Under the pieces are notes generated by a model that was not told the DNA's origin, did not search any database, and saw only the letters and a list, made by a program, of their open reading frames with translations. Position numbers and translations under genes: made by a program. This document shows positions 50,032 to 52,383 of a stretch of DNA of 64,000 nt, one piece after another (positions within the stretch are counted from its first letter, which is position 1; each line of letters starts with the position of its first letter). Source of the stretch: Clostridiales bacterium (lineage in GTDB: Bacteria > Bacillota > Clostridia > Christensenellales > Borkfalkiaceae); NCBI GenBank assembly GCA_015069495.1, contig SVIN01000002.1, positions 1 to 64,000 of the forward strand, written 5' to 3'.

Positions 50032-50265
50032 TTACATGGATTCGTGAATGGTTCTGGAAATAACGTCATCCTGCTGTTCTTTCGTGAGTTTGATGAAGTT
50101 TACCGCATAACCGGATACACGAATGGTGAGCTGAGGATACTTTTCGGGATGCGCTTGCGCGTCCAGAAGAGTTTCACGGTCAAATACGTTTACGTTCAAA
50201 TGGAAACCATTGTCGCCAACGTAACCGTCTAACATGTTTACCAAATTATCTACTCTGTTCGACAT
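50032..50265 (-). CDS. Separate glycyl-radical domain of pyruvate formate-lyase
   Basis: A 77-residue protein corresponding to the C-terminal 70-75 residues of Pfl[20 protein letters not shown], then [18 protein letters not shown] with the radical glycine at G52, ending [17 protein letters not shown]. The ATG at 50265 has AAGGAG 8 bases upstream; the longer frame from 50316 is not needed. It is much shorter than GrcA/YfiD (about 127 residues) and has no extra N-terminal domain. The neighbouring PflB core stops exactly where this domain would begin, so this is probably an obligate second subunit. That it must assemble with the core is inference. Confidence 0.92.
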
Positions 50266-50309
50266 AATATTATCTCCTTTATTAATATATTGTTTTTTAC
50301 CCAAATTAT

Positions 50310-50335
50310 GTGTCAAGCGCTTTTCCGCGCTACAC
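50310..50335 (-). promoter_or_regulatory. Intergenic hairpin between the two PFL genes
   Basis: On the minus strand GTGTAGCGC, GGAAAA loop and GCGCTTGACAC form a stem with a two-base bulge. It is not followed by a T run, so it is more likely to mark an mRNA end or processing site that sets the ratio of the two subunits. TTGACA at its end could also act as a weak internal promoter. Confidence 0.5.
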
Positions 50336-50349
50336 GGATAGGGTGAAGC

Positions 50350-52383
50350 TTAGTCCTCTTTACCGAGGGAGCTAGGCGTGATGGAGAAGGTATTGGAAAT
50401 ACCGTCTCTGGAATATTCGTAAGGCAATTTTGCAACCGATTCAAGGGATGCCAAAGCGCCGTTGGAATCTCTGCCGTGCATGGGGTTCGCACCGGGTGCA
50501 AGAGGAGTACCTGCTCTTCTGCCGTCGGGCGTGTTACCCGTCTTCTTACCGTATACAACGTTCGACGTAATCGTAAGGATGGACGTCGTAGGAACGGATT
50601 CACGATAGGTGTAGTGGCTCTTAACCTGCTTCATGAAGGTCTTCAATACCCATACTGCCAATTCGTCCGCTCTGTCATCGTTGTTACCATACTTAGGATA
50701 GTCGCCTTCGATGCGGAAGTCTACCACGATACCGTCTTCGTTACGGATGGGGTATACTTTAGCGTATTTGATTGCCGACAACGAGTCAGCCGTACAGGAA
50801 AGACCTGCGATACCCGTTGCGAAGAAACGACGTACGTTGGTATCGTGCAAGGACATTTCCAATGCTTCGTAGCTGTATTTATCGTGCATGTAGTGGATGA
50901 GGTTCAACGTATTTACGTAGAGGTCAGCAAGCCACTTCATCATGTTTTCGAACTTAGCGCATACTTCGTCGAAATCCAACGCTTCGTCGCCGTAGATGGG
51001 CACGAATTCGGGGGATACCTGCATGGGTTTGCCCGTCTTCTTATCTTTCATCAATTCGTCTTTACCGCCGTTGATTGCGTAAAGCAAGCACTTTGCAAGG
51101 TTTGCTCTTGCGCCGAAGAACTGCATGTCTTTACCAACGCGCATACAGCTTACACAGCAAGCGATTGCGTAGTCGTCACCCATTTCAGGACGCATCAAAT
51201 CGTCGCTTTCGTACTGAATGGAAGAGGTACGGATGGAAATTTCCGCGCAGTATCTCTTGAATGCCAAAGGCAATCTCTTCGACCACAAAACGGTAAGGTT
51301 GGGTTCGGGAGCGGGACCAAGGTTGTCCAAGGTGTGAAGGATACGGAAAGCAGTTTTCGTAACCAACGTTCTGCCGTCAACGCCCATACCGCCGATTGCT
51401 TCGGTTACCCAGGTAGGGTCGCCCGAGAAGAGTTCGTTGTATTCTTTCGTTCTCATGAACTTCACGATACGAAGTTTCATAACGAAATGGTCGATAAATT
51501 CTTGTGCTTGCGTTTCGGTAATCAAGCCCTTTGCAAGATCACGTTCGATATAGATATCGAGGAAGGTGGTATTTCTACCGATGGACATAGCCGCACCGTT
51601 TTGGTCCTTAACTGCGCCAAGGTAACCAAAGTACAATGCTTGGATTGCTTCCTGAGCCGTTTCAGCGGGTCTGGAAATATCGCAACCGTAAGCCGCTGCC
51701 ATTGCCTTCAAGCCCTTCAAAGCCTTAATTTGTTCAGCAACTTCTTCGCGGTTTCTGATCTTTTCAGGGGTCATGTCGCCGCTCATTGCAAGCTTGTCTT
51801 CTTCTTTCTTTTGAATGAGGTAATCTACACCGTAAAGTGCAACACGACGATAGTCGCCGATGATTCTGCCGCGGCCGTAAGCATCGGGCAAACCAGTCAA
51901 AATGTGTGCGGAACGAGCCGCTCTCATTTCGGGCGTGTATGCATCGAATACACCTTCGTTGTGCGTTTTACGATACTTCGTAAAGATTTCCTTTACTTGA
52001 GGATCGATTTGGTAGCCGTACATTTCCAAAGCGCCTTCGGACATACGAATACCGCCGAAAGGCTGCAACGAACGTTTGAAAGGTTCGTCCGTCTGTACAC
52101 CTACGATTTTTTCAAGGTCTTTATCCAAATAACCTGCGCCATGCGAGGTCAACGTGGAAACGATCTTCGTGTCAGCGTTCAAAACGCCGCCTGCTTCGCG
52201 TTCTTTTTTGGTCAAATCGCAAACGATATCCCACAATTTTTTCGTAGCTTCCGTTGCGGGAGCAAGGAACGTTGCGTCGCCTTCATACGGCGTGTAGTTG
52301 TGCTGGATGAAATCGCGCACGTCTACTTCGTCGTCGCACCATTTACCGGGAATAAATCCTTCCCAACCTTTGTATTGCATCAT
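50350..52383 (-). CDS. pflB: Pyruvate formate-lyase core lacking the glycyl-radical domain
   Basis: A 677-residue protein covering the whole catalytic barrel of PflB, which converts pyruvate and CoA to acetyl-CoA and formate. It starts [37 protein letters not shown] after GGAG. The catalytic cysteines are C409-C410 in [15 protein letters not shown]; an extra Cys413 replaces the usual Pro. Other features are [20 protein letters not shown] and, at the end, [17 protein letters not shown]. The normal enzyme (about 750 residues) continues into a domain with the radical glycine. Here a stop codon follows and that domain is the next gene, so the protein alone cannot carry the radical. Confidence 0.95.

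Follow-up and report, generated by a model that had tools for sequence, protein, structure and literature searches.

A pyruvate formate-lyase in Clostridia encoded as a core and a stand-alone glycyl-radical domain

Introduction

Pyruvate formate-lyase (PFL) is central to fermentation in anaerobic bacteria of the gut. We describe a PFL locus in which the catalytic core and the C-terminal glycyl-radical domain (GRD) are encoded by two separate genes. The locus lies in a stretch of 64,000 nucleotides from a Clostridiales bacterium of the family Borkfalkiaceae (assembly GCA_015069495.1, contig SVIN01000002.1), here called the window, and it very probably specifies an obligate two-subunit PFL. Split PFL is found in many other genomes and is more general than the view from a single window. 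On circumstantial evidence, we further propose that the small radical subunit is replaced after oxygen damage, a proposal that falls just short of probable.

Glycyl-radical enzymes die in oxygen: the backbone is cut at the radical. Escherichia coli repairs the cut enzyme with an emergency part; by what steps that part locates the damaged enzyme, inserts into it, and activates it is not yet settled.

The split locus

A preliminary description, made from the sequence of this DNA, held that PflB is divided into a core and a separately started 77-residue protein. This is borne out in each particular: the lengths, the 84-base gap, the AAGGAG ahead of the ATG at 50265, and the TIHESM end at 50032 are all correct. 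The core matches positions 2-662 of the 744-position PFL model TIGR01255, and the 77-mer matches positions 665-744. Together the 2 parts total 677 + 77 = 754 residues, the normal size of a PFL, as had been claimed. The core shares 431 of 668 aligned residues with E. coli PflB. The catalytic pair C409-C410, also named in the preliminary description, is confirmed by alignment to E. coli C418-C419 and is invariant in alignments A3 and A4 (alignment A1, which misplaced GRDs into the middle of the core, was not used); RVSGY is present in all 126 stand-alone GRDs compared.

The locus has many features of an ordinary PFL: the core alone passes the TIGR01255 cut-off, the cysteines are adjacent, RVSGY stands on the 77-mer, and pflA lies in the operon. 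A single polypeptide holding core and radical domain is missing. Because these are 2 genes, we call the locus a PFL variant rather than an ordinary member. Read along the minus strand from 53668 down to 50032, the gene order is pflA, a thioredoxin-like gene (trx), the PflB core, and the 77-residue open reading frame (ORF). The 4 genes look like one operon: a promoter-like site with 12 of 12 matches stands ahead of pflA, and the GRD gene is followed by a strong terminator-like stem. Across the region, 9 promoter-like sites were found against 6.4 expected by shuffling, and 8 terminator-like sites against 5.1.

Features of the locus
53721..53749, minus strand: promoter-like site upstream of pflA, TTGACA-17-TATAAT with TG before the second hexamer, 12/12 matches
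52946..53668, minus strand: pflA, radical-SAM PFL-activating enzyme, 240 residues (TIGR02493, 322.9 bits; cut-off 231.75)
52494..52817, minus strand: thioredoxin-like protein, 107 residues, CxxC motif CANC (TIGR01068, E 3e-10, 40.2 bits, below the cut-off of 96.8)
50350..52383, minus strand: PflB core without GRD, 677 residues (TIGR01255, 1081 bits; cut-off 994.2)
51154..51159, minus strand: codons of the catalytic pair C409-C410, placed by alignment (E. coli C418-C419)
50266..50349, minus strand: 84-base gap between core and GRD, with a predicted hairpin at about 50310-50335 and AAGGAG at 50274-50279 before the ATG
50032..50265, minus strand: stand-alone glycyl-radical subunit, 77 residues, RVSGY motif (NF038360 GrcA3, 153 bits; cut-off 158; PFL C-terminus, 93.3 bits)
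50110..50112, minus strand: codon of Gly52, the expected radical glycine, placed by alignment (E. coli G734)
49967..49994, minus strand: terminator-like 12-pair stem beyond the GRD gene (the 80 bases that follow the GRD stop have z -6.3)

Beyond the operon terminator, a TcdA/ThiF-like adenylyltransferase gene occupies 49245-49940; such a gene also lies downstream in many loci of the genus, usually more than 1 kb off.

The break is real and the radical domain has its own start

The split was followed in 2 sets of loci. The first comprised 51 stretches, chosen by high-scoring GRD matches: 47 are split, as is the window, and 4 are fused. The second was a separate scan of named genomes with at least 574 relatives, of which the best 80 loci were kept; here 69 are split, 2 are fused, and 9 are GRDs without an intact core directly upstream in the stretch. 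In the 116 split loci, the window excluded, the GRD starts in frame 0, 1, or 2 relative to the core stop in 36, 44, and 36 cases. Since it occurs in all 3 frames across relatives, the GRD is separately translated, which rules out stop-codon read-through. An ATG start with a Shine-Dalgarno-like sequence precedes the GRD in all 48 split loci of the first set. In the window itself, the 2 ORFs share a frame and are separated by one TAA; because the frame varies among relatives, this is chance.

A sequencing error joining the 2 frames, the danger raised in the preliminary description, is excluded: the same break recurs in 24 further loci from 22 genomes of the same genus. In a TIGR01255 search, core and GRD are likewise separate in 39 of the 41 genus genomes, the window's own among the 41, and only core fragments appear in the other two, G003 and G017. 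Both genes are under purifying selection: across 16 genus loci the median ratio of non-synonymous to synonymous change (dN/dS) is 0.029 in the GRD, where 118 of 120 pairs could be used, and 0.069 in the core, from 105 pairs.

The split enzyme as the sole PFL

The preliminary description had asked whether a full-length PflB elsewhere in the genome makes the pair redundant. None was found in the draft genome, which is 76% complete, nor does any of the 41 genus genomes, many of them incomplete drafts, yield an uninterrupted full-length TIGR01255 match. PF02901 finds 2 proteins in the draft: the split core and an 843-residue enzyme of the PFL2-3/dehydratase branch with its own radical domain. Among 23 further split genomes, 21 have no fused PFL that we could see, and only the split form was found in Lachnoclostridium phytofermentans and Ruminococcus sp. 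YE71.

Distribution and two types of split PFL

In an even sample of 391 genomes of the class, at least 23, the window's included, have a stand-alone GRD among the matches listed; in each of the 23 a truncated core is its neighbor, in part at contig edges. A comparable sample of 398 genomes of the phylum gave 2 clear cases among the matches listed, both from the class, and one further weak, short match (G624). In the Anaeroplasmataceae family of one genome, 45 of 55 genomes match; 2 of the 45 are frames of fused size, and the surroundings of only some of the remainder were inspected. Matches in named genomes include metagenome-assembled genomes labelled, by their own designations, Erysipelotrichaceae, Anaeroplasmataceae, Lachnospiraceae, Ruminococcus, and Gastranaerophilales. 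Going by such labels, split PFLs occur in Clostridia, Anaeroplasmataceae, Erysipelotrichaceae, and Gastranaerophilales.

The loci fall into 2 types. In type A, that of the window, the genes run pflA-(trx)-core-GRD and the core ends at GKED or a few residues away. Type-B cores, such as that of Lachnoclostridium phytofermentans, carry a tail of 7-43 residues, and their genes run core-GRD-(pflA). The trx gene was found in 42 of 55 fetched type-A stretches versus none of 62 type-B stretches, and its CxxC motif is CANC in 40 of 45; this CANC thioredoxin-like protein might hold either the activase or the cysteine pair of PFL in the reduced state. Many type-B tails hold a VFAGDLEVDL-like motif, and many also a cysteine-bearing motif resembling GACSTPTLFEGLD (L093-L095, L101-L103, L150, L180-L181, and others).

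One origin, probably by fission, with apparent re-fusions

A careful tree, built from 62 of 170 rows on core columns only, places all split cores in one clade together with 2 fused PFLs and the Protein Data Bank (PDB) chains 38LA and 38LB (support 98/88). Within it, type A groups with 38LA (99/95) and type B with 38LB (100/100). A quick tree of 133 of the 170 rows agrees, with a clade support of 89; the GRD alone is too short for resolution (11 of 182 branches starred).

Stand-alone GRDs carry characteristic residues, as a comparison of 126 of them (near-copies included) with 65 fused GRDs reveals. Residue 37 is Q in all 126 and M in 53 of the 65 fused domains; residue 16 is V in 100 of 126 and F in 59 of 65; residue 66 is D in 116 of 126 and L or M, most commonly L, in 40 of 65. 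In E. coli GrcA the position equivalent to residue 37 holds V instead of Q (alignment read by eye), so Q37 is no general mark of stand-alone domains. The 2 fused PFLs of the clade, L113 (genome G370) and L114 (G366), nest within type B and keep Q37, K38, and D66, not V16. On the strength of this nesting and of the 3 signature residues kept, they are best read as re-fusions of a split PFL; the alternative, several losses of the link, would need more changes.

Because the core tree has one split lineage within ordinary PFLs, fission of PflB is a simpler origin than takeover by a spare part. The preliminary description saw here a spare part that had become permanent. The split is indeed real, permanent, and conserved; the spare-part origin, put in those words, lacks support, for the 77-mer covers the whole PFL C-terminal domain. 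Its match starts at residue 4, whereas E. coli GrcA matches only from residue 18 and differs in its N-terminal half, and takeover by a YfiD-like part was set aside as less likely than fission, the 77-mer including a segment before residue 18 that GrcA does not share.

Comparison with known relatives

E. coli PflB (TIGR01255) has the same core, cysteine pair, radical motif, and activase, and the 3-D model of the split enzyme superposes on it over 742 residues at 1.4 Å; the E. coli enzyme is one chain of 759 residues, whereas here there are 2 chains.

The nearest named family of small proteins is GrcA3 (NF038360, 78 positions), which the 77-mer resembles as a stand-alone chain covering the model: it matches positions 4-78 at 153 bits, 5 below the NCBI cut-off of 158. 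The cut-off is passed by 20 of the 391 class genomes, all of split type B, whose tailed cores and core-GRD-(pflA) order differ from the tailless core and pflA-trx-core-GRD order of the window. By NCBI's rule the 77-mer is thus not classed as GrcA3, but the miss is marginal, because the window's core lies in one clade with type-B cores and a type-A genome, G845, passes with 158.3. Scores against the other families are lower: 91.4 bits for GrcA (YfiD, TIGR04365; cut-off 170), where only model positions 67-126 of about 126 match, and 103.3 bits for GrcA2 (NF008341; cut-off 145).

GrcA/YfiD of E. coli and Y06I of phage T4 are likewise separate chains that bear a radical domain and act together with PflB and PflA. 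GrcA, however, is a conditional repair part for an intact pflB, whereas the 77-mer is the only radical domain found for this PFL. GrcA has 127 residues with an N-terminal half that is needed for binding; the 77-mer lacks that half. PMC8683613 (JBC 2021) reports that GrcA residues 1-60 matter for binding, that E. coli PFL lacking residues 696-733 has no GrcA binding measurable by ITC, and that turnover per radical of the truncated enzyme is still measurable; according to its abstract, the truncation prevents rescue. Neither the 696-733 segment of the core chain nor a counterpart of GrcA residues 1-60 is present in the split enzyme.

Two PDB chains named formate acetyltransferase, 38LA_A (687 residues) and 38LB_A (739 residues), are cores without a radical domain, known here by sequence and molecule name. 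The former falls with type A and ends at the same GKED as the window's core; the latter falls with type B and has a type-B-like tail. Both are other proteins, with less than 80% identity to every core compared. They were not among the rows of our fold comparisons (library to 8 April 2026), and a search of the PDB turned up no GRD as a chain of its own.

Whether the split had already been described was left open at the outset, and the answer is mixed. The NCBIfam family GrcA3 and 2 split-type cores in the PDB exist; no description of a split PFL, under the name GrcA3 or otherwise, was found in the openly licensed literature, a scope outside which most subscription journals fall. PMC13252398 contains the word "split", which in the passages concerned refers to splitting pyruvate and splitting samples. 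New here are the apparent re-fusions within the clade, second unlinked GRD genes, 2 of 8 of them by rubrerythrin, and GRDs without a core in 14 of 17 virus records. A radical enzyme chain divided over 2 genes is reportedly also found in the class II ribonucleotide reductase of Pseudomonas aeruginosa; that system differs in enzyme class and cofactor, and its split-off part is not known to be a protein-radical domain.

Second GRD genes

Some genomes hold a GRD gene apart from any core. There are 6 such named loci (L123, L129, L130, L151, L156, and L196), each in a genome that also has a core with its own GRD; in one of the 6 genomes, G849, that core is a fragment at a contig end. L171, L172, and L183 were left out of the count for contig edges or a broken core. 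Extra GRD copies also occur in the Anaeroplasmataceae genomes G879 and G880 (L341 and L344). Linked and unlinked proteins are identical at 77 of 77 residues in G845 (226 of 231 bases), G879 (196 of 231), and G880 (194 of 231); over the part compared, they agree at 74/74 residues in G844, 73/74 in G846, 70/74 in G848, and 72/76 in G849, with G847 left out of the comparison. The dN/dS count gives 5 non-synonymous steps for G879 and G880 despite identical proteins, which reflects averaged mutation paths in codons with several changes. Thus, although silent sites have diverged, the proteins of the second GRD genes have stayed conserved.

In 2 of the 8 unlinked loci the GRD has rubrerythrin as its neighbor; the same scan covered 145 other loci and stretches, of unequal length, and saw this in none. 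In L129 (4436-5231), the rubrerythrin gene ends 28 bases before the GRD. In L151 (4992-6284), a Fur-family gene and then rubrerythrin follow the GRD; because the intervening Fur gene seems, by eye, to have its own promoter region, co-transcription of GRD and rubrerythrin is not implied. No known stress genes were among the neighbors examined at L123, L130, L156, and L196, and no rubrerythrin-like gene was seen at L341 and L344, judged by size and position.

GRDs in virus records

A relative of the 77-mer is encoded in 17 IMG/VR records, 14 without a core in the record and 3 with one. These records may be fragments and are not all independent: L290 and L300 share a GRD, as do L294 and L295. Two of the 14 coreless records (L305 and L306) resemble E. 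coli GrcA. The terminase PF03237 occurs in 4 of the 17 and in none of L290-L300, the records nearest the window's GRD; their viral label therefore rests on IMG/VR. The 77-mer has matches in 1534 of 50,697 annotated phage records, mostly enterobacterial phages at 60-80% identity, and T4-like phages commonly have such relatives; 84 cover at least 80% of it, none does so at 80% identity or above, and some are annotated as autonomous glycyl radical cofactor.

Two further features of these records stand on their own. In a 230 kb virus record (L293/L355), the neighbors of the GRD are NrdD, an NrdG-like protein, and a T4-type RNA ligase, so that 2 glycyl-radical functions adjoin in one record. In the 73 kb record L290, and also in L300 and L357, the GRD is followed by a PFL core with 3 in-frame TGA codons; in L290 all 3 stand where Trp is expected and open frames are longer under table 4, and TGA probably reads as Trp in that record.

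Proposed mechanism and alternatives

In the two-subunit enzyme that we propose, the large subunit would provide the barrel, C409-C410, and the sites for substrate and CoA, and the 77-residue subunit the complete C-terminal GRD on its own chain. In a homology model, the docked 77-mer sits in the core in the way that the covalent domain sits in E. coli PFL. PflA would place the radical on Gly52, and catalysis would follow once the radical had passed to the cysteine pair. Cleavage by oxygen at Gly52 would affect the small chain, with the core left intact, and a fresh 77-mer could replace the remnant. The preliminary description had foreseen both a permanent split and exchange after damage: permanence stands, with only the one PflB-type PFL found in the draft, and exchange has the circumstantial support of second and viral GRDs.

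Several observations weigh against this proposal. Rubrerythrin stands at only 2 of 8 unlinked GRDs, a pattern spotted after the fact, with the others beside ordinary genes. No second GRD was seen in the window's own draft genome, and within the genus only G012 and G016 show 2 GRDs, possibly as assembly duplicates. L113 and L114 apparently returned to the fused form. Fused PFL accompanies the split one in 2 of the 23 further split genomes (G398 and G294) and in Claveliimonas bilis. Three cores are interrupted in the sequence itself (L103, L177, and L183); some others are cut off by contig ends. A model made without fused relatives is not confident at the Gly loop and last helix. Finally, because truncated E. 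coli PFL is not measurably bound by GrcA, a core lacking the whole domain would need a different binding mode.

A rival account is neutral fission, in which a stop codon split pflB, a tight fit kept function, and the arrangement was inherited without any benefit of exchange, the 77-mer staying bound for life. The single split origin in the tree fits this account; so does the apparent re-fusion of L113 and L114, by which the covalent form would be tolerated, and the presence of 2 GRDs in no more than 2 of 39 GRD-bearing genus genomes. Yet the protein-level conservation of second GRDs, the virus-borne GRDs without a core, and the 2 GRDs beside rubrerythrin suggest that an extra free GRD is useful, and we regard neutral fission as unlikely.

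The split might instead set the ratio of the parts, with a hairpin in the gap processing or stabilizing the transcript to give unequal amounts irrespective of oxygen. Of 25 core-GRD gaps in the genus, 21 were long enough for testing (L081 and L082 are duplicates), and 15 of these fold with z below -2 (mean -3.3; -2.3 for the window), compared with 6 of 20 trx-core gaps (mean -1.5); after the GRD, 20 of 25 do so (mean -3.3). These gap hairpins, whose sequences look unrelated between genomes, speak for this account. Against it, the remaining 4 genus gaps are too short for testing, outside the genus the gaps of most type-A loci span about 11-40 bases and form no stable hairpin, and no T-run was seen by eye after the hairpins. 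Control of the ratio as the reason for the split is, we judge, decidedly unlikely. The hairpins were also considered as terminators and rejected, there being no such T-run and no terminator-like site there in the window scan; an internal promoter-like site at 50316-50289 was likewise dropped, for it has 10 of 12 matches but the number of sites in the region is about that of shuffled sequence.

It is highly improbable that the locus encodes a degenerate PFL core whose neighboring 77-mer serves some other glycyl-radical enzyme as a spare part. The genome does have a second large one, of 843 residues, but this is a member of the dehydratase branch equipped with a radical domain of its own; the split core retains the catalytic residues inspected and is under purifying selection; and the GRD follows the core in 69 of the 80 named loci. 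A single enzyme broken by a stop through error, pseudogene formation, or read-through has next to no probability: the shared frame and single TAA of the window would suit it, but the frame counts across 116 loci already refute it, and the split in 39 of 41 genus genomes, dN/dS far below 1, and the separate starts in 48 of 48 loci also weigh against it.

Significance

We tentatively extend the two-subunit reading to a wider proposal: the glycyl radical may here be a consumable, diffusible protein cofactor. A pool of 77-mer might keep a long-lived core serving through oxygen; the operon gene would supply it, joined in some species by a second gene in the neighborhood of oxygen-stress genes. Some phages might carry a 77-mer so that the split PFL of their host stays active during infection, as T4 carries Y06I for the E. 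coli enzyme.

If true, this would be a natural system with repair as its normal mode, in which a core free of a radical domain must bind a 77-residue partner without the N-terminal half of GrcA. Split PFL would offer a clean two-part system for measuring binding, activation, and exchange. Annotation should take account of this: where a GrcA-like gene lies next to a PFL labelled "truncated", the enzyme is likely complete. More broadly, the proposal would bear on how gut fermenters survive oxygen pulses and how phages of anaerobes manage the fermentation of their hosts.
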